This document shows positions 10,479 to 57,377 of a stretch of DNA of 64,000 nucleotides, one piece after another. The stretch comes from Flavobacterium reichenbachii (GTDB lineage Bacteria; Bacteroidota; Bacteroidia; Flavobacteriales; Flavobacteriaceae). Within the stretch, counting starts at the first letter, position 1. Each line of letters opens with the position of its first letter. Made by a program: the position numbers and the translations under genes. The stretch spans positions 18,533-82,532 of the forward strand of contig NZ_MUHF01000008.1 in NCBI RefSeq assembly GCF_002217435.1, written 5' to 3'. Below the pieces are notes generated by a model. That model did no database searches and was not told where the DNA came from. It saw only the letters and a list, made by a program, of their open reading frames with translations.

Positions 10479-10811
10479 ATGGGAGCAACAAAAACAGATC
10501 ATTTTACAGATAATCAAAACGAGCTTGCTGTCTTAGCAAAAGCTTTGGGTCATCCAGCCCGAATAGCTATCATGGAATACTTATTAAAAGTAGATACCTG
10601 CATCTGCGGCGATATTGTAAATGAATTACCGCTTTCTCAACCTACTGTATCACAACACTTAAAGGAACTTAAAAATGCGGGTTTAATTAAAGGAAATATA
10701 GACGGAAATTCTATCTGTTACTGCATTAACGAGCCGGGATTAGAAAAAATAAAAGGATTTTTTGAACACATTACTGTTCATCTTCAAAAAAAGAGAAACG
10801 AGTGCTGCTAA
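10479..10811 (+). CDS. arsR: ArsR/SmtB-family transcriptional repressor
   Basis: The 110-aa protein is a winged-helix regulator with recognition region 'LPLSQPTVSQHLKELKNAG' (about residues 50-69). Cys41 and Cys43 lie in 'DTCICGDIV', in the same helix as the arsenite-sensing cysteines of classical ArsR. It ends in a vicinal Cys-Cys pair (NECC) that could add a third thiol. ArsR proteins leave DNA when As(III) or a metalloid binds. It is the first gene of a four-gene unit with an acetyltransferase, a DUF6428-type protein and an arsenate reductase, which fits arsenic sensing. Confidence 0.85.
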   Translation: MGATKTDHFTDNQNELAVLAKALGHPARIAIMEYLLKVDTCICGDIVNELPLSQPTVSQHLKELKNAGLIKGNIDGNSICYCINEPGLEKIKGFFEHITVHLQKKRNECC

Positions 10812-10821
10812 TCTTAGAACT

Positions 10822-11307
10822 ATGGAAATCAGAAATCTATTAACTTCTGACTGGGAACACGTCAGGTTAATTTACGAAAAAGGAATCACTACCGGAAATG
10901 CAACATTTCAAACTACTGCACCTTCTTGGGATGATTGGAATAATTCACACCTTGAAAGCTGTAGAATTGTCAGCGAAGGCGATGGTGCAATTACAGGCTG
11001 GGCTGCTCTTACACCGGTTTCTTCACGATGCGTGTATGCCGGAGTTGCCGAAGTTAGTGTATATGTTGATCCAGAACATTCTGGAAAAGGAATTGGTCTC
11101 GCACTTTTGAATAGACTTGTAAATTTAAGTGAGACTGAAGGCATATGGACACTTCAAGCCGGGATTTTTCCTGAAAACACAGCAAGTCTTCGCATTCACG
11201 AAAAAGCAGGCTTCAGGATTTTAGGTGTTCGGGAAAAAATTGGCAGACAGTACGGAATTTGGAGAGATACTGTTCTGCTCGAAAGAAGAAGCAAACTTTT
11301 GATCTAA
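10822..11307 (+). CDS. arsN: GNAT N-acetyltransferase, ArsN1/phosphinothricin type
   Basis: The start at 10822 (MEIRNLLTSDW) is preferred over an earlier in-frame ATG inside arsR; it leaves 10 bases after the arsR stop. The 161-aa product has the acetyl-CoA binding signature 'GKGIGLALLNRL' and the family pattern 'YVDPEHSGKGIG ... HEKAGFRILG ... WRDTVLLER', as in phosphinothricin and ArsN1 acetyltransferases. ArsN1 enzymes in ars operons acetylate arsinothricin, an organoarsenical antibiotic. The operon context favours ArsN1 here, but activity on phosphinothricin, methionine sulfoximine or other amino acids cannot be excluded. Confidence 0.75.
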   Translation: MEIRNLLTSDWEHVRLIYEKGITTGNATFQTTAPSWDDWNNSHLESCRIVSEGDGAITGWAALTPVSSRCVYAGVAEVSVYVDPEHSGKGIGLALLNRLVNLSETEGIWTLQAGIFPENTASLRIHEKAGFRILGVREKIGRQYGIWRDTVLLERRSKLLI

Positions 11308-11354
11308 TTACAATTTTCAAAAAACATATTTAGATAACTAAAAAATTAAAAATC

Positions 11355-11828
11355 ATGAAACTTTCAGAAATTAAACAAATACTAACTGCAGTTGAAACTG
11401 TCAATTTTGAACTCCCAAACGGAATTTTTGTTCCCGAATATTTCCACGTAACTGAAGTCGGCCTGATTACTAAAAACTTTATTGATTGCGGCGGAGTCGT
11501 CAGAAAGGAAACTGTGGTCAATTTTCAGCTTTGGGACGCCAATGATTATGAGCACAGATTAAAACCTCAAAAACTAATTCACATCATTGAACTTTCAGAA
11601 AAAGTATTAGGGATTGAAGATCATGAAATTGAAGTAGAATATCAGGATACGACTATTGGTAAATACGATTTAGGGTTTAATGGTAAAAATTTCATTTTAA
11701 TAAATAAACAAACTGCCTGTCTGGCTCAGGATCAATGCGGAATTCCATCAAACAAACCTAAGGTGCAATTTTCTCAGTTAAACGCAGACAATTCAAACTC
11801 ATGCACACCTGGCGGAGGATGTTGTTAA
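11355..11828 (+). CDS. DUF6428-type protein with Cys-rich C-terminus
   Basis: The 157-aa soluble protein resembles the DUF6428 proteins found next to arsR in Bacteroidetes ('PNGIFVPEYFHVTEVGLI', 'KNFIDCGG'). The last 40 residues hold Cys pairs: 'TACLAQDQCG' and a terminal 'SCTPGGGCC'. Four or five free cysteines in a flexible tail are suited to binding a soft metalloid. Position between the acetyltransferase and the arsenate reductase suggests a role as arsenite-binding chaperone or sensor, which is my inference. No biochemical function is known to me. Confidence 0.65.
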   Translation: MKLSEIKQILTAVETVNFELPNGIFVPEYFHVTEVGLITKNFIDCGGVVRKETVVNFQLWDANDYEHRLKPQKLIHIIELSEKVLGIEDHEIEVEYQDTTIGKYDLGFNGKNFILINKQTACLAQDQCGIPSNKPKVQFSQLNADNSNSCTPGGGCC

Positions 11829-11864
11829 TTTTCGTAATCAAATGACCAATAACGTTTTAGAACT

Positions 11865-12479
11865 ATGTTGTATCCTAAAATAGAAAATACAATCAGCTCA
11901 TTTAATTTTGAGCAGATTTCTGAAGAACGTAAAAGTATATTGCAGCCTTTGGTTGACTTTATTCAAAACAAAGCAAATAATAAAAAGGAAATCAGATTGA
12001 ACTTAATCTGCACACACAATTCCAGAAGGAGCCATTTATCTCAGGTTTGGGCGCAGACTGCTGCTTTTCATTATAATATAAAAAATGTTTTCTGCTATTC
12101 TGGCGGTACAGAAGCCACTGCTTTGTTCCCGATAGCTGCCGAAACTTTAGTGTATTCTGGATTTAAGATCGTAAAAATTTCAGAAGGCAAAAATCCTGTA
12201 TATTCCATAAAATTTTCATCGAACGAAGCACCTATTATCGGCTTCTCTAAAACTTATGATGATGATTTTAATCCTGAAAGTGAGTTTGCAGCAATCATGA
12301 CCTGCTCACAAGCTGACGGAGGCTGTCCGTTTATTGCAGGTGCTATAAAACGAATTCCGATTACTTTTGAAGATCCAAAAGTTTCAGATGGAACTCCGCA
12401 GCAAAAAGAAATATACTTGCAGCGGAGTCTTCAAATTGGAACTGAAATGTTTTATGTATTCTCACAAATCAAACGATAA
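11865..12479 (+). CDS. arsC: Thioredoxin-type arsenate reductase (LMW-PTP fold)
   Basis: The 204-aa protein has the low-molecular-weight phosphatase P-loop 'CTHNSRRS' (CX5R, Cys49). It also has the two redox cysteines of thioredoxin-linked ArsC, Cys147 and Cys154, in 'TCSQADGGCP' with the canonical six-residue spacing, followed by 'FEDP'. These three cysteines reduce As(V) to As(III) in a relay and are regenerated by thioredoxin. An N-terminal extension of about 40 residues precedes the catalytic loop. It closes the ars-type operon. Bacteroidetes annotations often call it protein-tyrosine-phosphatase; the redox Cys pair argues for arsenate reductase. Confidence 0.8.
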   Translation: MLYPKIENTISSFNFEQISEERKSILQPLVDFIQNKANNKKEIRLNLICTHNSRRSHLSQVWAQTAAFHYNIKNVFCYSGGTEATALFPIAAETLVYSGFKIVKISEGKNPVYSIKFSSNEAPIIGFSKTYDDDFNPESEFAAIMTCSQADGGCPFIAGAIKRIPITFEDPKVSDGTPQQKEIYLQRSLQIGTEMFYVFSQIKR

Positions 12480-12583: not shown

Positions 12584-12648
12584 AACGACTGATTTTGCCT
12601 GTTTACCGAAAACCAAATATTCTGGAGAAGTTTTCTAATGACCTTTAC
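12584..12648 (+). promoter_or_regulatory. Shared stress-promoter box, copy 1 (dps)
   Basis: A 27-base box (12584-12610) begins AACGACTGATTTTGCC and ends ACCGAA, and is followed after a fixed distance by TTTAC at 12644-12648 (offset 60). Nearly the same arrangement lies upstream of the genes at 17021 and 20159. Half-sites 'ACGA' and 'CCGA' are 21 bases apart, about two helical turns. The TTTAC is part of GACCTTTA, close to the TAnnTTTG -7 box. I infer an activator site plus core promoter for dps. Confidence 0.65.
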
Positions 12649-12693
12649 ATAAGAAAACAAAGCAATCCTGCTTATAAATTAAAACTCTAGATT

Positions 12694-13167
12694 ATGAAAG
12701 CAACCATAGGTCTTACAGAAAAAAACACAGACGCAGTTTCTAATGAATTGGCAAAATTATTGGCCGATGAATTTGTACTTTATACCAAAACCAGAAATGC
12801 GCACTGGAATGTTACAGGTGATAATTTTCATGCAAATCACATTTTCTTTGAAAATCAGTACAAACAATTAGATGAGATCATTGACAGCGTTGCCGAACGT
12901 ATGCGAAAAATTGGCCATTACGCACCAGCAACTCTAAAATCGTATCTTGAACTTACGCATCTTACAGAATACAGCGATAGAACAAATGACGGATTGGGTT
13001 TCATGAAAGATTTATTGAATGATCATGAAAGCATTATAGAGTTTATTCGCGGTAACATCACTCCTTTTGCCAACGATTACAAAGATTATGGTTCTAGCGA
13101 TTTTATTACAGGTTTAATAGAAGTGCACGAAGAAATGGCCTGGATGATCCGTTCTTACTTTAGATAA
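12694..13167 (+). CDS. dps: Dps-family DNA-binding ferritin-like protein
   Basis: The 157-aa protein is a Dps/miniferritin. It shows the ferroxidase pattern 'NAHWNVTGDNF' followed by 'NQYKQLDEIIDSVAERM', where the His, Asp and Glu residues sit between subunits of the dodecamer. Dps oxidises Fe(II) with H2O2 and protects DNA in stress. Length is normal. The gene stands alone, with the shared stress-promoter box about 100 bases upstream and the LytTR regulator gene 46 bases downstream. Confidence 0.93.
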   Translation: MKATIGLTEKNTDAVSNELAKLLADEFVLYTKTRNAHWNVTGDNFHANHIFFENQYKQLDEIIDSVAERMRKIGHYAPATLKSYLELTHLTEYSDRTNDGLGFMKDLLNDHESIIEFIRGNITPFANDYKDYGSSDFITGLIEVHEEMAWMIRSYFR

Positions 13168-13183
13168 AATAAATAGGAATAAG

Positions 13184-13191
13184 TATATTTG
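13184..13191 (+). promoter_or_regulatory. Bacteroidetes -7 promoter element
   Basis: TATATTTG matches TAnnTTTG exactly and lies 22 bases before the start of the LytTR regulator gene, so this gene probably has its own constitutive-type promoter in addition to read-through from dps. Confidence 0.6.
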
Positions 13192-13213
13192 TCTAAACCC
13201 AAAACCAAATACC

Positions 13214-13909
13214 ATGAAAGCGTTGATCGTTGATGACAATGATATTGCAAGAACCACTTTGTCTCATTTGGCAAAACAAATTCCGAATCTTATAGTTGTA
13301 AATGAATATTGTAATGCCATTGAGGCGTATCATCATTTACAGGAAAATCATGTAGACTTGATCTTTTTGGATATTGAAATGCCGGAAATGACTGGAATAG
13401 AATTGACAAAAAATCTATCAGGCAAAGATGTCATCATCATTTTTACGTCTTCTAAAAAGGAATATGCGCTGGAAGCTTTTGAATTGAATATCGCAGATTA
13501 CATCCTAAAACCAGTTACTCCATCACGATTTTTACAGGCGATAAGTAAAGCGCAGTCTATAATAGAAAGCCGAAAAGAGAATGTGCAATTTGGAAAAGAA
13601 GAATTTTTATTTGTTAGAGATTCCAATATTACAAGACGCTTAAAACTGGATGATATTTTTTATGCAGAAGCAATGGGCGATTATGTAAAGTTTTACACCA
13701 AAGAAAAAATGTTTGCCATACACGGCAAAATGAAAACTGCCGAAGAACGTCTGCCAAAAGATGATTTCATTAGAGTGCATCGTTCTTATATTGTTTCACT
13801 GAGTAAAATTGACACTTTACAAGATGGCGGTATTATGATTAATAAAAAATTTATTCCCGTTGCCGATGCTTATCGAAAAGCGCTTAACACGAGAATGAAT
13901 GTTTTTTAA
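13214..13909 (+). CDS. LytTR-family response regulator
   Basis: The 231-aa protein has an N-terminal receiver domain with phospho-acceptor Asp53 in 'FLDIEMPEMTG' and Lys in 'DYILKPV' (about residue 98). It has a C-terminal LytTR DNA-binding domain (about residues 130-230, with 'DIFYAEAMGDYVKFYT' and 'FIRVHRSYIVS'). LytTR regulators bind direct repeats spaced by about two helical turns. No LytS-type kinase is adjacent; instead a hybrid kinase with an HPt domain lies 267 bases downstream. It may control the nearby stress genes that share a direct-repeat-containing promoter box (inference). Confidence 0.9.
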   Translation: MKALIVDDNDIARTTLSHLAKQIPNLIVVNEYCNAIEAYHHLQENHVDLIFLDIEMPEMTGIELTKNLSGKDVIIIFTSSKKEYALEAFELNIADYILKPVTPSRFLQAISKAQSIIESRKENVQFGKEEFLFVRDSNITRRLKLDDIFYAEAMGDYVKFYTKEKMFAIHGKMKTAEERLPKDDFIRVHRSYIVSLSKIDTLQDGGIMINKKFIPVADAYRKALNTRMNVF

Positions 13910-13982
13910 ACAGCATTATTTCAGCTGAAACTTCTGCCCCATTTAAATTAAAATGATCCATTGTTTGTATTTAGCAAAAAAT

Positions 13983-14122
13983 AAACACATAGAAACATAG
14001 ATTTTTTTTATATAAAAAGGATACAAAAAGAAACTCGTTTCTCACACATAGCAAAGTATGTGCGTTAAAATAAGTGAAACGCCTTTTTTTTAAAGTTTCC
14101 AAATCTATGCTTCTATGTGTTA
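13983..14122. repeat. Dispersed palindromic element, copy 1
   Basis: The ends are inverted repeats: AAACACATAGAAACATAG on the left and CTATGCTTCTATGTGTTA on the right. Inside are the family's conserved blocks 'AAAAGAAACTCGTTTCT' and 'AGTGAAACGCC'. It fills most of the gap between the LytTR regulator and the hybrid kinase, and has no coding potential. Other copies are at 19691, 20635, 33704, 34060 (partial), 36459 and 57219. Confidence 0.8.
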
Positions 14123-14176
14123 GAATTAATTTCACTCAACGAGTTAAGATAATACAATTTCATTTACACTTATTTT

Positions 14177-16384
14177 ATGATAAATACGTCTACCGTAATG
14201 GGCAACAAACGCTTTAGCTATTTTATAATAAGCAGCTTTATTTTGTGCAGCGTTTTATTGATCGCTGTACAAATTAATTCGGCCAGAAATACTAAAGAGC
14301 TCATACGAAACAACAATACACTTTTAAGCGAGCTGCGTTCAAGCAATCATTTAAGAGAAATCGACCGTGATATTTTGGGAGTTGAAAGCAGAATCAGAGC
14401 TTCTATTGCTACCAATGACACCACTCATCTGGAAGGAATTGATCAGAAGATTAAGCAGATTCGAAATTTTCTCGATTCCTTATCCGTAGACAATTCAGAT
14501 CCTGAAGAAGAAAACTTAATTCAGAGACTGGGAGTTCTTGCGCAAGATAAAATGATTACAAAAGGAAAGCTTCTGCATCGCTATGATTCTGTGGGAAATA
14601 TGGATGATAATACCTCTATAGCCAATCCGCGTGCGCGAATGATCTCTAATGAAATTACTGATATTACGGCAAAAATTTATCATAAGCGTCAAGTGCGGAT
14701 GGTTGAACTCAGCAATCTAAGTAACGAAATGGGCGAACGAGCAAAACTCTATGACATTTCTCTATTAATATTATTGGTAATAAGCGGTGCTGTAATTGGT
14801 TATCATATCATGCGCCAATTTAGAAGACAGCATTTTTTGATTAAGGAATTGGATATTGCAGAGAAAAAAGCATCTGTTGCAGCACAAACCAAAGAAAACT
14901 TTCTGGCCAATATGAGTCATGAAATAAGAACGCCGTTAAGTGGTATTTTAGGATTTACCAATTTATTGCAGAAAAGACCTTTAGATGAAACAGCAACGGA
15001 ATTTGTAAGTTCCATTCAGCGGTCCGGAGAAAACTTAATGACCATTATTAATGACATACTCGATTTATCTAAAATCGAAGCAGGAATGATGCGCATTACA
15101 CCCGGAATATTCAGCATCAATGGATTATTAGACTCGGTTGAAACGCTTTTTTCAGAACGTGTAAAAGAAAAAAAACTAACGATTTCGAGTAAGATTGAAA
15201 CTTCAATTCCCGATACTTTAATTGGTGATGCCACCAGATTGACGCAAATATTAGTAAACCTTATTGGCAACGCAATAAAGTTTACGCATCAGGGATCAGT
15301 AAGTATCGAAGTTTATAACAAAGAACAAAACGAAAATCAGGTTGCTCTGGGTTTTAAAATTATAGATACAGGTATCGGAATTGATAAAGAAAAACTAGAC
15401 GAAGTTTTCGAAAGATTCAATCAGGGCGAAGATTCTACAACCAGAAATTATGGTGGAACAGGGTTAGGTTTATCAATTGTAAAAAGGCTGATTTTATTGC
15501 AGGACGGCGATATCGAAGTAAGCAGTGAACGTGGAAAAGGAACGACTTTCAGTTTTTATATTCCGTATGAAATTGCTAAAGAACAGCTTAATGCAGTTCC
15601 GGTTGCAAATGTGGATCACTTTAAAGATATTTCCAATACGGCTTTGAGAGTTTTAGTTGTAGACGACAATGCCATAAACCAAAGTTTGATGAAACATTTA
15701 TTATCGCAATGGAATATTGATTTTGATATGGTATCTAATGGTTTAGAAGCCGTTGAATATCTAAGAAAAAAAGATTGTGATCTTGTTCTGATGGATTTAC
15801 AAATGCCTCAAATGGACGGATATACGGCAACGCAGCAAATCCGTGAAATCTTAAAATTAGATATTCCGATAATTGCTATGACGGCGCATGCACTGCCTGG
15901 TGAAAGAGAAAAATGTCTGAGCCGCGGTATGAATGAATACCTCTCTAAACCTATTAAAGAAGAAGAGCTTTTTAAATTAATTGCTAGTTTCGGACTGAAA
16001 GAATCTAAATCAGAAGAAATAAACGTAAGAGAAACTAATCCAGTTTTTGAATACATTGATCTTACTTACATGAAGTCAGTTAGCAGTGGTAACAAAGCTT
16101 TTGAAGAAACCGTGACCAAGCAATTTATTGACAATGTGCCACGGCATTTGGAACAACTAAAAAAAGCTTATCAAAATCAGGATTTTAAAATGACAAAACT
16201 AACTGCTCACGATTTAAAATCTAGCGTCGCAATAATGGGTTTGTTACCGCTTTTAGAAGAAAAACTCGACATTCTTGAAACGGCTTCAGAGCAAAATACA
16301 ACTTTACAACAAATTTTAGACGATGTAGAAAGCATTCTCAATTTATCACTTGTTGAAGCAAAAATATTCTTAGAATCTCTGTAA
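14177..16384 (+). CDS. Hybrid sensor histidine kinase with receiver and HPt domains
   Basis: The 735-aa protein has two membrane segments (about residues 14-32 and 193-212) flanking a helical periplasmic sensor of CHASE3-like type. A HisKA domain follows with His248 in 'NMSHEIRTPL', then an HATPase domain ('NLIGNAIKFT', 'DTGIGID', 'GGTGLGLSIV'), a receiver domain with Asp540 in 'LMDLQMPQMDG', and a C-terminal HPt domain with His678 in 'TAHDLKSS'. All four phosphorelay stations are present except a final output regulator. The LytTR regulator encoded just upstream is the obvious candidate target of the HPt. A second in-frame ATG at residue 8 is an alternative start. Confidence 0.92.
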   Translation: MINTSTVMGNKRFSYFIISSFILCSVLLIAVQINSARNTKELIRNNNTLLSELRSSNHLREIDRDILGVESRIRASIATNDTTHLEGIDQKIKQIRNFLDSLSVDNSDPEEENLIQRLGVLAQDKMITKGKLLHRYDSVGNMDDNTSIANPRARMISNEITDITAKIYHKRQVRMVELSNLSNEMGERAKLYDISLLILLVISGAVIGYHIMRQFRRQHFLIKELDIAEKKASVAAQTKENFLANMSHEIRTPLSGILGFTNLLQKRPLDETATEFVSSIQRSGENLMTIINDILDLSKIEAGMMRITPGIFSINGLLDSVETLFSERVKEKKLTISSKIETSIPDTLIGDATRLTQILVNLIGNAIKFTHQGSVSIEVYNKEQNENQVALGFKIIDTGIGIDKEKLDEVFERFNQGEDSTTRNYGGTGLGLSIVKRLILLQDGDIEVSSERGKGTTFSFYIPYEIAKEQLNAVPVANVDHFKDISNTALRVLVVDDNAINQSLMKHLLSQWNIDFDMVSNGLEAVEYLRKKDCDLVLMDLQMPQMDGYTATQQIREILKLDIPIIAMTAHALPGEREKCLSRGMNEYLSKPIKEEELFKLIASFGLKESKSEEINVRETNPVFEYIDLTYMKSVSSGNKAFEETVTKQFIDNVPRHLEQLKKAYQNQDFKMTKLTAHDLKSSVAIMGLLPLLEEKLDILETASEQNTTLQQILDDVESILNLSLVEAKIFLESL

Positions 16385-16438
16385 AAAAACAAATAGTTTT
16401 CAATTCAAAAAAATCATCTTACTATATATTATTCACTA

Positions 16439-16470
16439 AGAGACTGTTCGAAAAAGCAGTCTCTTTTTTT
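16439..16470 (+). terminator. Rho-independent terminator
   Basis: Perfect 8-bp stem AGAGACTG / CAGTCTCT with a 10-base loop and a T run, 55 bases after the stop of the hybrid kinase gene. Confidence 0.85.
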
Positions 16471-16488
16471 ATTTTTTCCTATCTTCAA

Positions 16489-16896
16489 ACATAGCCCGAG
16501 GTTTCAACCTCGGGAAACGCATTCTATGCAAATTATGATCCTAATTGTGCTTTAATAATTGTGATGTGATCATCATTGCGTCCCACTCCCAGTGGTTGAA
16601 ACCACTGGCTATGTTTCCCTATTATTGAGATTTATTATTCTTGTTTTTTTTTTCATTCCTATTTTCAAACACAGCCCGAGGTTTCAACCTCGGGAAACGT
16701 ATTCTATGCAAATTATGATCCTAATTGTGCTTTAATAATTGTGATGTTATCATCATTACGTCCCAGTCCCAGTAGTTGAAACCACTGGCTATGTTTTCCT
16801 ATTATTGAGATTTATTATTCTTGTTTTTTTCCATTCCTATTTTCAAACACAGCCCGAGATTTCAACCTCGGGAAACGCATTCTATGCAAATTATGA
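16489..16896. repeat. 180-bp tandem palindromic repeat, 2.3 copies
   Basis: Two full units (from 16489 and 16669) and a truncated third (16847-16896) repeat with a period of 180 then 178 bases and only a few differences. Each unit has ACATAGCC-like and GGCTATGT ends and two perfect hairpins, CCCGAGGTTTCAACCTCGGG near the left and CCAGTGGTTGAAACCACTGG near the right (the right one is mutated in unit 2). It fills the non-coding gap 16385-17020 together with the terminator and the promoter box. It carries no open frame. It looks like a REP- or MITE-like element that was duplicated in tandem. Confidence 0.8.
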
Positions 16897-16925
16897 TAAC
16901 AACAAACGATAGATTTTGCTATTTA

Positions 16926-16990
16926 AACGAGTGTTTCTGCCCATTCGATGAATAGTCTAATGCAGGCTGAATGTAAGGAGGTAAATTTAC
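16926..16990 (+). promoter_or_regulatory. Shared stress-promoter box, copy 3 (SRPBCC gene)
   Basis: AACGAGTGTTTCTGCC, then CATTCGATGAA, is aligned base for base with the boxes before dps and the peroxiredoxin gene, and TTTAC (16986-16990) again follows at an offset of exactly 60. The core reads TAAATTTA, one base from TAnnTTTG, 34 bases before the start at 17021. This is the most diverged of the three copies. Confidence 0.6.
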
Positions 16991-17020
16991 TTCAGTTAAA
17001 CATTTAAAACCAAAGAAATT

Positions 17021-17578
17021 ATGGAAATCATTCAAACCAAAGAAAACGCATTATCACATTCAGCAGTAACTGCAGTTATCAATGCTCCAATTGAAAAAGT
17101 AAATATCGCAGACTGGCTTTTAAATCTTCCTGATGCAGAATACCAACGCTGTTCGACACAACATATTGGCGCGGGAATTACCAGCACTTATGACGGCCAG
17201 CCAATGTCTATCAATGTAGAAACAATAGGCGACGCATTAATGGTGCAGCATTATGTTGCAACTGTTTATCGCCCAGATTATTGCCGTATGTTATCAATCT
17301 CAGATTCTATTACCCAAAACGGACGTACCAAAGTGCAGGTTTTATGGGAACTTAAAGTAACCAAAATCGACGAAAACACTTGTCTTTATACTAACGAAAT
17401 TCATGCAACTGCCACACCGCAAATGTTTGAATATCTAAAAGAACACGGAGTAAATCTAGCCGGTGCAGCCGCTTCAAGACAAGCTGCTTCTGATGCTCAC
17501 AATCACGAAGAAACGCCTAACTTTGCTAAAAGCATCGAAAACAAAGCTTTAACAGGTAAATACAATCAGCCTTTTTAA
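17021..17578 (+). CDS. SRPBCC/START-like fold protein (hypothetical)
   Basis: The 185-aa protein has no signal peptide and no certain family name. Its pattern of beta strands and a long C-terminal helix ('PQMFEYLKEHGVNLAGAAAS'), with an N-terminal 'SAVTAVINAPIEKVNIADWL', resembles the START/SRPBCC ligand-binding fold. Function is unknown. It is the first gene of a likely operon with the lipocalin-like protein, quinone reductase and ABM-domain protein, and it carries the shared stress-promoter box, so a role in detoxification or stress is inferred. Confidence 0.6.
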   Translation: MEIIQTKENALSHSAVTAVINAPIEKVNIADWLLNLPDAEYQRCSTQHIGAGITSTYDGQPMSINVETIGDALMVQHYVATVYRPDYCRMLSISDSITQNGRTKVQVLWELKVTKIDENTCLYTNEIHATATPQMFEYLKEHGVNLAGAAASRQAASDAHNHEETPNFAKSIENKALTGKYNQPF

Positions 17579-17630
17579 TGATAATAAAAACAGAGCGTGC
17601 TAATGTACGCTCACTTTATTTTTGGGCATC

Positions 17631-18062
17631 ATGAAAAAAAACTTATTTGAAATACTAATCGGATCTTGGACTTTGGTTGAATTGATTGAAGTACCTTTAG
17701 ATGGCGGAGAAATCATATATCCGATGGGCAACAAACCGAAAGGCCTCATAATTTATAGTGGCGATGGTTATATGTCGGCACAAATAATGAATACTGATTT
17801 TGAAAATTTGGATTCAAAAAACAATGCCGCTTATCTCGCCTATTCTGGACCTTTTCAAACTGATGATGAAAAACAAACAGTCAGCCATACGATGTACGTT
17901 TCGCTTTTTGAAAATTGGAGAGACCAAACACAAAACAGGAAAGTTATTTTTAAAGACGGATTGCTGCATTTAGAAACCGATAAACCTTTTACGAGTAATT
18001 CACAATTAGTAATTCATAAACTCACTTGGAAAAGAATTGAACAATCTAACAAAAACCATTAA
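17631..18062 (+). CDS. Lipocalin-like domain protein
   Basis: The 143-aa protein (start at MKKNLFE; an ATG three codons earlier is possible) matches the lipocalin-like domain of small bacterial proteins. It has 'GSWTLVELIEV' at the N-terminus, 'PKGLIIYSGDGYMSAQIM' in the middle and 'LTWKRI' at the end. Such proteins form a small beta barrel thought to bind hydrophobic molecules; substrates are unknown. It lacks a signal peptide and so is cytoplasmic. The gene ends 11 bases before the quinone reductase start, indicating co-transcription. Confidence 0.75.
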   Translation: MKKNLFEILIGSWTLVELIEVPLDGGEIIYPMGNKPKGLIIYSGDGYMSAQIMNTDFENLDSKNNAAYLAYSGPFQTDDEKQTVSHTMYVSLFENWRDQTQNRKVIFKDGLLHLETDKPFTSNSQLVIHKLTWKRIEQSNKNH

Positions 18063-18073
18063 TCAAAAATCAA

Positions 18074-19042
18074 ATGAAAGCAATAGTTATAACCCAGCCT
18101 GGAGCTCCGGAAGTACTGAAACTACAAGAATATCCAATGCCGGAAATAAAAGGTGATGAACTTTTAATTGAAGTAAAAGCTGCAGGCTTAAATCGTTCTG
18201 ATATTTTTCAGCGTGAAGGTAATTATCCGGCACCGCCTGGCGTTTCTTCAGAAATCCTAGGTTTAGAAGTATCTGGAATTGTAATCGAATGCGGACCAGA
18301 TGTTACTGATTTTAAAATTGGTGATAAAGTTTGTGCAATTCTTGCAGGCGGCGGTTATGCAGAATATGTCATCGTGCGCGAAGGTCAGTGCCTTCCAATT
18401 CCTTCTGGACTGACTTTTGCCGAAGCTGCAAGTCTGCCGGAAACCGTTTTTACAGTGTGGTCAAATATTTTTCAAAGAGGGCAACTTACATCTGGAGAAA
18501 CGCTTTTGATTCACGGCGGCAATAGCGGTATTGGCATTACAGGAATTCAGATTGCTCATGCTTTGGGTATTCGCGTAATCGTAACGGTCGGTTCTGATGA
18601 AAAAGGACAAAATTGCCTTGAACTTGGTGCCGATTCGTTTATAAATTACAAGACTCAGGATTTCGAAATCATTTTGCAGGAAGAAGGAGTTGATGTTATT
18701 TTAGATATGATCGGTGGTGATTACCTCAGCAAAAATGTCAACATCCTTAAACCAGAAGGCAGATTAATACATATTAACGCCGTAAGCGGAAGTCATGTAG
18801 ATCTTGATCTTTGGAAAGTGATGACAAAACGTTTAACTATTACCGGAAGTACATTAAGAAGCAGAGATTATGAGTTTAAAAAACAATTGGCTAAAGAAGT
18901 GCAAAAAAATGTCTGGCCTTTAATAGAATCCAAACAATTCAAACCCATTATTTTTAAAACATTTCCTTTTACAGAAGCTCCTGAAGCACACCGATTGTTA
19001 GAAGAAAGCAGACATACAGGCAAAATTATACTAGTTAGATAA
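18074..19042 (+). CDS. NAD(P)H-quinone oxidoreductase, PIG3-like (MDR superfamily)
   Basis: The 322-aa protein belongs to the zinc-free quinone oxidoreductase branch of medium-chain dehydrogenases. It starts 'MKAIVITQPGAPEVL', has 'AAGLNRSDIFQREGNYP' and the Rossmann motif 'HGGNSGIGITG' (residues 147-157), and ends with 'HTGKIILVR', as in PIG3/TP53I3-type enzymes. It should reduce quinones or reactive carbonyl compounds with NADPH in the cytoplasm. Zinc-ligand cysteines are absent. It sits in an operon with the lipocalin-like and ABM-domain genes. Confidence 0.88.
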   Translation: MKAIVITQPGAPEVLKLQEYPMPEIKGDELLIEVKAAGLNRSDIFQREGNYPAPPGVSSEILGLEVSGIVIECGPDVTDFKIGDKVCAILAGGGYAEYVIVREGQCLPIPSGLTFAEAASLPETVFTVWSNIFQRGQLTSGETLLIHGGNSGIGITGIQIAHALGIRVIVTVGSDEKGQNCLELGADSFINYKTQDFEIILQEEGVDVILDMIGGDYLSKNVNILKPEGRLIHINAVSGSHVDLDLWKVMTKRLTITGSTLRSRDYEFKKQLAKEVQKNVWPLIESKQFKPIIFKTFPFTEAPEAHRLLEESRHTGKIILVR

Positions 19043-19100
19043 TTTTTAATCTGATACAATAATCGAAACCAACTTTTATCAACCTAAAACAAATAGTAAT

Positions 19101-19652
19101 ATGGAAAATCAAGGCGCATCTGTTGTAATAACCCACCATATTTTGGATGGTAAAGAACAACAATATGAAAAATGGCTGGATGAAATCGTTCCCATTACCA
19201 AAAATTCAAATGGTTTTATCGATTTGCAGATTGTGCGTCCGATTCCGCATTTAACGTTTGTTTACACTGTTATTATCCGATTTGATACTATCGAAAATCT
19301 TAAAATCTGGATGGAATCTGACGACCGAAAAATGCTGATTAAAAAAGCAAATCCTTTCTTTAGAAAAAATGATAAGTACCAAATAAAATCAGGTTTAGAT
19401 TTTCTTTTTAATGCAGAAAATGAAGGAAATAAAATTCCCGTTCGCTGGAAACAATTCTTGGTAACCTGGTCGGCCATTTATCCATTATCGCTCGTGATTC
19501 CATTACTGGCACTCCCCTTTTTAAGGTTTTTACAAATTCCGGCATATCATTATTTTGATGCTTTGGTAAACTCCGGTTTTATCGTCTTTTTGATGGTATT
19601 TGCCGTAATGCCAAATTATACCAAACTGATCAAGAAATGGCTTTATAAATAA
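19101..19652 (+). CDS. Antibiotic biosynthesis monooxygenase (ABM) domain membrane protein
   Basis: The 183-aa protein has an N-terminal ABM-type ferredoxin-like domain (about residues 8-95; 'VVITHHILDGKEQQYEKWL', 'FIDLQIVRPIP'). Two transmembrane helices follow (about residues 122-143 and 150-172). Soluble ABM proteins act on quinones or as stress-linked oxygenases; this fused membrane form is common but uncharacterised. It follows the quinone reductase gene by 58 bases, which fits a quinone-related role (inference). Confidence 0.78.
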   Translation: MENQGASVVITHHILDGKEQQYEKWLDEIVPITKNSNGFIDLQIVRPIPHLTFVYTVIIRFDTIENLKIWMESDDRKMLIKKANPFFRKNDKYQIKSGLDFLFNAENEGNKIPVRWKQFLVTWSAIYPLSLVIPLLALPFLRFLQIPAYHYFDALVNSGFIVFLMVFAVMPNYTKLIKKWLYK

Positions 19653-19690
19653 TAAAACACATAACTGCTGGGTGTAAATTAATGTTCTTT

Positions 19691-19828
19691 AAACACATAG
19701 AAACATAGAATTTATTTATAAAAAAGTGAATAAAAAGAAACGAGTTTCTAACACATAGTTAACTATGTTTATTTTAAAAAAGTGAAACGCCTTTTTTAAG
19801 TATTCTAAATCTATGTTTCTATGTGTTA
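19691..19828. repeat. Dispersed palindromic element, copy 2
   Basis: It has the same terminal inverted repeats (AAACACATAGAAACATAG left, CTATGTTTCTATGTGTTA right) and the same internal blocks ('AAAAAGAAACGAGTTTCT', 'AGTGAAACGCC') as the copy at 13983, in the same orientation. It starts 38 bases after the ABM gene stop. Confidence 0.8.
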
Positions 19829-19870
19829 GAATAATTGACAACTGGTTAAATACATCTTTATAATTTACGA

Positions 19871-19899
19871 AATCACTGTCTTACGCAGTGATTTTTTTT
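19871..19899 (+). terminator. Rho-independent terminator
   Basis: Perfect 8-bp stem AATCACTG / CAGTGATT with a 7-base loop and a run of T. It ends the SRPBCC-lipocalin-quinone reductase-ABM transcript after the repeat element. The remaining 19900-20158 holds the shared promoter box and no gene. Confidence 0.8.
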
Positions 19900-19985
19900 A
19901 TTTAAACACTAATAAACAAATATTTACCACTTTAAAATCTATCGAGATCTCTAAATGATTTCCTAAAGTTTCTCTTACTAAATTC

Positions 19986-20050
19986 AACGACTCATTTTGC
20001 CCATCTAACGAATTCAAAACATACTCCGATCATATCTTCAATAGCTTTAC
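19986..20050 (+). promoter_or_regulatory. Shared stress-promoter box, copy 2 (peroxiredoxin gene)
   Basis: AACGACTCATTTTGCC, then CATCTAACGAA, matches the dps box at most positions, with TTTAC (20046-20050) at the same offset of 60. ACGA half-sites at 19987 and 20008 are 21 bases apart. The core is TAGCTTTA, one base from TAnnTTTG. The start codon lies 108 bases after TTTAC, longer than for the other two copies. Confidence 0.65.
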
Positions 20051-20158
20051 AATAGAATTAAAAACCAATGTTTGAGATACAACAAGGAGAGCTTCTTTAA
20101 AAGATTTTTCCGATTGTGGTAGCAAACCAAAAAAACTAAACCTTAAAAAATAAATCTT

Positions 20159-20611
20159 ATGCTGCAGAAAAATGAAGTTGCGCCAGATTTTACATTATAC
20201 GCAACACCCGACCAAAAAATCACTTTATCAGAATTCAAAGGAAAAAATGTGATTTTAGCCTTTTATCCTGCCGACTGGAGTCCGGTCTGCAGTGATCAAA
20301 TGGCACTTTACAATGAGATGCTTAAATTTTTCAAGAAATACGATGCCGAAATTTTTGGTATTTCTGTAGACAGCAAATGGTGCCACACGGCTTTTTCTCA
20401 ATCTAGAAACCTGCACTTTCCTTTATTGGCTGATTTTGAAAGTAAAGGAGAAATCGCAAAAAAATACGGCGTTTATAATGAAAAGGAAGGCGAATGCAAT
20501 CGCGCACTCTTTGTAATTGATAAAAACGGAATCATACAATGGAGTTATCTGTCGCCAATGGCTATAAACCCCGGAGCAGATGGAATCTTAGAAGCTTTAG
20601 AAAAACTTTAA
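20159..20611 (+). CDS. Peroxiredoxin (AhpC/TSA family)
   Basis: The 150-aa protein is a thioredoxin-fold peroxidase. The peroxidatic Cys44 is in 'YPADWSPVCSDQ', a variant of the usual PxxxTxxC in which Thr is replaced by Ser or Pro. Cys75 in 'SKWCHTAF' and a third Cys in 'EGECNRALF' are candidates for the resolving residue. It reduces H2O2 or alkyl peroxides in the cytoplasm with thiol donors. Its promoter carries the shared stress box. A DsbA-like gene follows after a palindromic repeat. Confidence 0.87.
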   Translation: MLQKNEVAPDFTLYATPDQKITLSEFKGKNVILAFYPADWSPVCSDQMALYNEMLKFFKKYDAEIFGISVDSKWCHTAFSQSRNLHFPLLADFESKGEIAKKYGVYNEKEGECNRALFVIDKNGIIQWSYLSPMAINPGADGILEALEKL

Positions 20612-20819: not shown

Positions 20820-21335
20820 ATGTCACTAAAACCAGCAGTCAGTAAAACTGACCATATCCAAGGAAAAAAAGATTCAGATATCGTAATTGTAGAATACGGA
20901 GATTATCAATGTCCGTATTGCGGAGCAGCGTATCCTGTTCTTAAAGAAATGATGAAAAAATACGGAAGTAAGATCCAATTTGTATTTAGAAACTTTCCGT
21001 TATCTGAAATGCACCAATACGCACGCCCGGCGGCAATTGCGGCAGAAGCTGCAGCATTACAGGGAAAATTCTGGGAAATGCACGACGCTATTTACGAAAA
21101 TCAGGAATATTTGAGTGAAGCTTTTTTATTAGAATTAGCAGAGAAATTGGAGCTTGACCCTCATCAATTTAATACGGATATCAAAAAGTTAGAAGTAGCT
21201 ACTAAAATAGATTCTGATTTTGAAAGTGGTATTATGAGCGGCGTAAATGGGACTCCTTCCCTATTTGTTAACGGAAGAAAATTTAACGGAAGTCCGGAAG
21301 ATTTGTTACAGCTGATGAGCGAAATCGCCAAATAA
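20820..21335 (+). CDS. DsbA-family thioredoxin-fold oxidoreductase, cytoplasmic
   Basis: The 171-aa protein has the thioredoxin fold with active site CPYC (Cys31 and Cys34 in 'DYQCPYCGAAYP') and the cis-Pro loop 'NGTPSLFVNG'. It resembles DsbA/DSBA-like proteins (PF13462) but has no signal peptide, so it probably works in the cytoplasm on disulfides or organic peroxides. Neighbours are a peroxiredoxin and an FdhD/molybdoenzyme pair. A thiol-redox stress role is inferred. Confidence 0.85.
   Translation: MSLKPAVSKTDHIQGKKDSDIVIVEYGDYQCPYCGAAYPVLKEMMKKYGSKIQFVFRNFPLSEMHQYARPAAIAAEAAALQGKFWEMHDAIYENQEYLSEAFLLELAEKLELDPHQFNTDIKKLEVATKIDSDFESGIMSGVNGTPSLFVNGRKFNGSPEDLLQLMSEIAK

Positions 21336-56189: not shown

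Positions 56190-57377
<1,188 letters not shown>

Follow-up and report, generated by a model that had tools for sequence, protein, structure and literature searches.

A 27-bp box at fixed distance from variant −7 promoters of stress genes in Flavobacterium reichenbachii and its relatives: a putative operator of a LytTR regulator

In a 64,000-nt stretch of the Flavobacterium reichenbachii genome (contig NZ_MUHF01000008.1, positions 18,533–82,532 of the forward strand; hereafter “the window”, with positions counted from its first nucleotide) one and the same 27-bp box is found upstream of dps, of an SRPBCC-like gene and of a peroxiredoxin gene, and in all three cases TTTAC begins exactly 60 bases after the first base of the box. 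This shared promoter design is genuine and under selection. Comparison of related genomes makes it rather probable that the box serves as an operator for the LytTR response regulator encoded next to dps, which would be the output of a hybrid-kinase phosphorelay and would activate promoters combining a variant −7 element with the absence of a −33 element.

Box, spacing and promoter element

The search pattern, AACGA-x-T-xx-TT-y-TGCC-xx-T-xxxxx-GAA with its 16 fixed positions, was derived from the three window sites (AACGAnTnnTTnTGCCnnTnnnnnGAA). They fit it without mismatch at 12584..12610 (box 1, a proposed operator, before dps), 16926..16952 (box 2, before the SRPBCC-like gene) and 19986..20012 (box 3, before the peroxiredoxin gene), all on the forward strand. 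TTTAC starts at 12644, 16986 and 20046, respectively, and each box contains the half-site (A/C)(C/T)GA twice, 21 bases apart; in all these points the original prediction, made from the letters of the window, was correct. It overlooked a degenerate box at 16905..16931 (forward strand, 3 mismatches), which stands in tandem 21 bp before box 2 and resembles tandems in other Flavobacterium loci. Perfect matches occur in the entire genome of this bacterium (5,577,968 bases) exactly three times, always in the window, and the box combined with TTTAC at the fixed offset was found, with up to 3 mismatches allowed, only at the same three sites, while the control, a reversed box pattern, gave 2. Since the pattern was drawn from these very sites, such rarity is partly circular, and the independent evidence is that provided by relatives.

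Relatives were represented by 80 named loci, the best 80 of 408 LytTR relatives, chosen by similarity of the LytTR regulator and spanning Flavobacterium, Chryseobacterium, Epilithonimonas, Pedobacter, Sphingobacterium, Mucilaginibacter, Dyadobacter and Chitinophagales. Together with the window they contain 209 boxes with no more than two mismatches. TTTA is present at +60 from the start of 196 of these boxes, while the other 74 offsets have it in 1.9 boxes each on average, and the spacing originally reported for the window is in this way confirmed in relatives. TTT in the same position accompanies all 79 perfect boxes, 81 of the 82 boxes with one mismatch and 38 of the 48 boxes with two. Some of the 13 boxes devoid of TTTA at +60 are tandem upstream boxes like that at 16905, and at some sites of F. 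rivuli, Ferruginibacter and Chitinophagales the offset is 59 or 61, so that 60 is a rule, but not an absolute one. A logo built on the 191 unique sites that have TTT at +60 shows TC-AACGACTCATTTTGCCYRTTCACCGAA, 29 bases, TAGCTTTACATCAGAAAA. Two direct repeats about 21 bp apart are found upstream of the targets, including all three sites of the window. The right half-site is better described as nCGA: its strict form (A/C)(C/T)GA was registered in 125 of 197 unique sites, and n(C/T)GA at +22 in 180 of 197, the latter count being partly favoured by the site pattern. Independently of this pattern, a third repeat was detected in 18 of the 197 sites, where (A/C)CGA precedes the left half-site by exactly 21 bp; none of the other offsets between −45 and −4 has it in more than 5.

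Identical spacing might be inherited rather than selected, if the three promoters were recent copies of one block or of a mobile repeat, and other repeats are indeed present in the region. However, in 184 pairs of promoters belonging to the same locus the spacer and the upstream stretch are identical only by 32% and 31%, respectively, compared to 77% in the box (by which the sites were chosen), and the spacing is kept across genera. With so low identity of spacers, promoter duplication is hardly credible. The box was also considered as a translational or leader element and rejected in this capacity, since its distance to TTTA is fixed, while that from TTTA to ATG is variable: 21–53 for dps, 33–51 for bicupin, 31–52 for SRPBCC, 46–163 for hydrolase and 50–225 for peroxiredoxin genes (starts picked mechanically).

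Promoters recognized by the primary sigma factor of Bacteroidota contain TTG at −33. Enrichment of this trinucleotide was not found in the boxed promoters, where TTG placed anywhere at +28..+38 from the box start was registered in 32 of 197 sites. The −7 element of flavobacteria is TAnnTTTG, located at −12 to −5 (PMC9723704). With TA of TAnnTTTAC set at −12 according to this paper, the start of transcription is predicted at box +68, where A is present in 97% of the 191 unique sites. In the window the variant elements GACCTTTAC (12640..12648), TAAATTTAC (16982..16990) and TAGCTTTAC (20042..20050), all on the forward strand, would then initiate transcripts at A12652, A16994 and A20054. Similarity of the TTTA element to the −7 element of Bacteroidetes, noted from the beginning, is thus in line with the published consensus. 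Within the TA dinucleotide A is conserved in 99% and T in 65% of the unique sites, but the TTTG typical of the primary sigma factor is replaced by TTTA, with A in 99% of them.

This departure from TAnnTTTG at one position, an A at −5 that hardly ever varies, may also point to another sigma factor. The box together with TAnnTTTAC might be read by a dedicated alternative factor, or the box by some other activator encoded elsewhere, with the LytTR gene only travelling along. Alternative sigma factors with motifs of their own do exist in F. psychrophilum (PMC9723704). However, the published motif of extracytoplasmic function (ECF) factors has a CGT box near −10 (PMC9723704), which is absent from these promoters, the 27-bp box with its 21-bp repeats is unlike a −35 element, no sigma factor was found among ten scanned proteins encoded from dps to fdhD, and the presence of the box follows the LytTR gene, as described below. 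We consider, therefore, that this explanation has a rather small chance to be correct.

Distribution of the box and the LytTR gene

Co-occurrence of the box and the LytTR gene was estimated in samples of 150 genus, 346 order and 396 class genomes (G000 was present in all three and some genomes in two), using E-value cut-offs of 1e-60 for the genus and class and 1e-70 for the order. The LytTR search scored only part of the preliminary candidates, and some LytTR genes may be missed. In the genus the box (two mismatches) was detected in 7 of 7 genomes with LytTR and in 1 of 143 without it (Fisher 2.7e-11), and in the order in 18 of 18 versus 1 of 328 (Fisher 3.8e-29); both values overstate independence, owing to the kinship of the genomes and to the tuning of the pattern on the named loci. 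In the class it was found in all 3 genomes with LytTR of at least 80% identity, in none of the 10 with identity of 43–53% and in 1 of the 383 without LytTR. Thus, apart from a few exceptions and distant relatives, the operator tracks the regulator in all three samples, which supports the early choice of the LytTR protein as a prime candidate. The SRPBCC gene offers a natural control: within the genus all 5 genomes with LytTR have a box before it, at −94 or −95, and none of the 3 without LytTR does.

Search for sites with up to 3 mismatches in 48 whole genomes of the 80 loci revealed 2–5 sites in 45 of them, 126 in total, while the control pattern gave 4. A hand count in these genomes places 113 of the 126 sites within the lytTR loci of ±10 kb. 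Ten off-locus sites were fetched, and five of them precede a known target or the kinase: genes for SRPBCC, lipocalin and quinone reductase (L175), the SRPBCC and lipocalin genes (L180, a weak site with TTTG), a partial match to bicupin (L176), a homologue of a lipase-like target of Dyadobacter (L179) and the kinase itself (L182). In the genome of Chryseobacterium taichungense, to which L175 belongs, the SRPBCC operon lies away from lytTR; near it a kinase fragment 42% identical to the window kinase is encoded (5794–6501 of L175).

Together with the A at −5, a number of observations weigh against assigning the box to the LytTR regulator. Poor matches to the box were registered in G091 of the genus and G657 of the class in the absence of a detected LytTR gene, and the order genome G510 has a single degenerate box with no LytTR at the cut-off used. 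The ten class genomes with LytTR relatives of 43–53% identity have no box, it was not found at loci L115 (62%), L116 (58%), L120 (50%) and L121 (52%), and the search of the whole genomes of L113, L115 and L116 with 3 mismatches allowed yielded no site, although weaker boxes are present in L113. The link between the box and LytTR is therefore confined to a subfamily. The SRPBCC genes of LytTR-less genomes, used above as a control, form a separate lineage (71–74% identical), and the other five off-locus sites have no match directly downstream among the reference proteins. In the genome of F. reichenbachii the box alone, taken with up to 3 mismatches, remains at the background level (57 forward and 65 reverse, 122 altogether, versus 64 and 51, or 115, for the control). 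The pattern used for all three samples was tuned on the 80 loci, and some genomes of the order sample are identical to the named ones. Finally, the box could be read by another DNA-binding protein, encoded elsewhere and co-travelling with LytTR.

The orphan degenerate box of G510 (position 6950 of L174) stands before an alpha/beta hydrolase gene and is perhaps a decaying operator. Beside this hydrolase a gene set resembling those for arsenic resistance was noticed by eye (1900–5821 of L174), as it was near dps of the window, where a similar cluster (ArsR-like, GNAT, arsenate-reductase-like) occupies 10479–12479.

Boxed genes and the proposed phosphorelay

All window genes listed in this paragraph are on the forward strand. 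Box 1 is followed by dps (12694..13167, domain match to Ferritin-like PF00210), in 46 bp after it by the gene of the LytTR response regulator (13214..13909), proposed to control the boxes on the basis of its domains and co-occurrence, and then by the gene of the hybrid histidine kinase (14177..16384). Among 74 loci carrying dps and lytTR on one strand the two genes are neighbours in 68 (median gap 57 bp), and box 1 should therefore drive the regulator gene too. Behind box 2 are located the SRPBCC-like gene (17021..17578; the label is that of the original prediction, and no match was found in Pfam or NCBIfam), its probable operon partner, judging from the gap, encoding a Lipocalin_5 protein (17631..18062), and the genes of a PIG3-family NAD(P)H quinone oxidoreductase (18074..19042, TIGR02824 above cut-off) and an ABM-like protein (19101..19652; Pfam ABM below cut-off, the C-terminal part hydrophobic by eye). 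The model of the SRPBCC-like protein built from 18 close sequences (pLDDT 38.9, pTM 0.26) is too weak to judge the fold. Box 3 precedes the AhpC/TSA peroxiredoxin gene (20159..20611, domain match), and the last member of this unit is possibly the gene of a DsbA/thioredoxin-like protein (20820..21335), which adjoins the peroxiredoxin gene in many relatives.

In the window and the 80 loci 199 sites were collected using the box and its tail together (no more than 3 mismatches in all). Genes found downstream of them encode Dps (69), bicupin (59), SRPBCC-like proteins (52), alpha/beta hydrolase (8), a shared other protein (2) and single other proteins (3), one site has no open reading frame behind it, and in five cases, namely the window, L045, L066, L093 and L119, peroxiredoxin follows the box directly. 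The bicupin representative, taken as its first 250 residues, matches TIGR03404 above cut-off. Where the third box is of the bicupin type, peroxiredoxin is often encoded further downstream (for instance, in L044, L047, L094 and L098). Unlike most relatives, the window has no bicupin gene between box 3 and the peroxiredoxin gene (20054–20159), and none was found in the same genome at E 1e-5, which is a weak negative, since this search had no positive control.

The LytTR regulator contains PF00072 (REC) and PF04397 (LytTR), both above cut-off, and its phospho-acceptor D53 is present in 81 of 81 sequences. The kinase consists of HisKA, HATPase, REC and Hpt domains, and its H248 (HisKA), D540 (REC) and H678 (Hpt) are likewise retained in 81 of 81. 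The Hpt model scores just above the Pfam cut-off in the window kinase and below it in L111, the F. akiainvivens locus. The sensor region, called CHASE3 in PMC6801697, matches this domain everywhere below cut-off (E 0.37 in the window, 0.0096 in L111, 0.068 in L094 and 0.0047 in L112). In the most probable reading, a signal would be sensed, presumably outside the inner membrane, by this CHASE3-like region, the phosphate would be relayed from His248 to Asp540, then to His678 of Hpt and to Asp53 of the regulator, and the phosphorylated regulator would bind as a pair to the direct repeats 21 bp apart.

Published LytTR sites are composed of two repeats of 9–11 nt with a spacer of 11–13 nt (PMC4847170), and the repeats of AgrA are centred near −60 (PMC4227749). 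The geometry of the box fits these data: counted from the predicted start, its distal half-site is placed at about −66, the proximal one at about −45 and the centre at about −55. Having a variant −7 element and no −33, the promoters should be weak without an activator, and the bound regulator would recruit RNA polymerase to TAnnTTTA, standing in for the −33 element. The opposite action is also conceivable, in which LytTR binds the box but represses, and stress releases the promoters; AgrA, for instance, acts as a repressor of bsaA, occupying a site downstream of the bsaA promoter (PMC4227749). Here, however, the −7 element comes after the box and a −33 element is absent, which fits activation and leaves very little likelihood for repression.

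If the LytTR regulator acts as an activator, its targets would be dps-lytTR-kinase as unit 1 (that is, with autoregulation), SRPBCC-lipocalin-quinone reductase-ABM-like as unit 2, both with a putative operon extent, and bicupin/peroxiredoxin units as unit 3. The whole would represent a small transferable regulon against damage by oxidants or electrophiles. A more far-reaching assumption is that of a self-contained stress module of Bacteroidota, moving horizontally and controlling Dps, peroxiredoxin, bicupin, quinone reductase and SRPBCC, in which a hybrid-kinase phosphorelay feeds a LytTR activator, the operator of the latter replaces −33 at a rigid distance and TTTA is a built-in off-state; its chances to be right or wrong seem to us about equal. 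Such a design, with an activator substituting for −33 and TTTA within the −7 element, would account for a Bacteroidota promoter staying off until it is required. Bacteroidota are not known to have RpoS or SigB, and few operators of transcription factors have been described in Flavobacterium, Chryseobacterium, Pedobacter and their kin. For the operator proposed here a candidate regulator and kinase, the precise geometry of the promoter, target genes and natural controls are all available, which makes it directly testable.

Repeated sequences were also observed in this locus. A repeat holding CGAGGTTTCAACCTCGG occupies 16480–16900 directly upstream of box 2, with copies at 16497 and 16677 (180 bp apart) and a third partial variant. 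An intergenic repeat beginning with ACACATAGAAACATAG was found exactly at 13985, 19693, 20637 and 57220, and extends over 13985–14130, 19693–19830, from 20637 onward and over 57220–57375. Inverted copies at its end are exact at 19811 and 57360 and were seen by eye as a variant near 14105; this repeat is possibly a small mobile element or one forming a hairpin.

Relation to known systems

The kinase and the regulator are almost certainly the pair described as FaRpfC-FaYpdB in F. akiainvivens (PMC6801697). Common to both is a HisKA-HATPase-REC-Hpt kinase beside a REC-LytTR regulator (PMC6801697), with a sensor region termed CHASE3 in that paper and CHASE3-like, below cut-off, here. The published gap of 212 bp corresponds to the distance that separates the lytTR stop of L111 (F. 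akiainvivens IK-1) from the third ATG in frame with the kinase gene. This locus keeps the boxes, and the F. akiainvivens genome (G188) contains three boxed sites. A tree of the regulator places both F. akiainvivens and one further genome of Flavobacteriaceae inside Chryseobacterium/Epilithonimonas (support 98/87 and 99/91), and this placement fits horizontal transfer. Convergent evolution with Chryseobacterium and Epilithonimonas is stated in PMC6801697. The dps-lytTR stretch, used as one query, had no match in a plasmid collection.

The two descriptions differ in the role of the pair: PMC6801697 proposes quorum sensing and, in the parts covered, gives no targets, operator or stress role. In that case the boxed genes would be controlled by cell density. 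The proposal rests on BLAST similarity to Rpf proteins and the RpfC-like domain order (PMC6801697, section 2.9), while most of the boxed genes serve protection or detoxification, and we see little likelihood in such control. For F. johnsoniae a LytTR regulator with no assigned role is mentioned (PMC10197871), which may or may not be the present one. No description of the box, regulon, targets or stress role was found in the open-access literature searched. The “undescribed local stress regulon” of the original prediction is supported comparatively, and no account of it was met in this literature, but the pair itself had already been named (PMC6801697). The data suggest a stress role for a regulator pair until now presumed to be a quorum sensor; if the horizontally moving module assumed above is real, it would be a defined stress regulon in a phylum not known to have RpoS or SigB, and the published “quorum-sensing” pair would be reassigned.

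Regulators of the AgrA/YpdB type usually have LytS- or AgrC-like partner kinases. The box shares with their sites a position upstream of the promoter and direct repeats spaced by about two helical turns, the centre in the case of AgrA being published as near −60. The sequence of the repeats is different, TTTTGCC between them is also conserved here, and the system described here has the Bacteroidota −7 element and a hybrid kinase with Hpt. Among NCBIfam models the window kinase has its highest score with BarA-type hybrid kinases (419.6 bits), far below the BarA cut-off of 890; the domain order of BarA, HisKA-REC-Hpt, is the same, but its partner is a NarL-type regulator, not LytTR. In Bacteroidota dps is controlled by OxyR. 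As a target in oxidative stress dps is thus common to OxyR and the proposed regulon, while the regulators belong to unrelated types.

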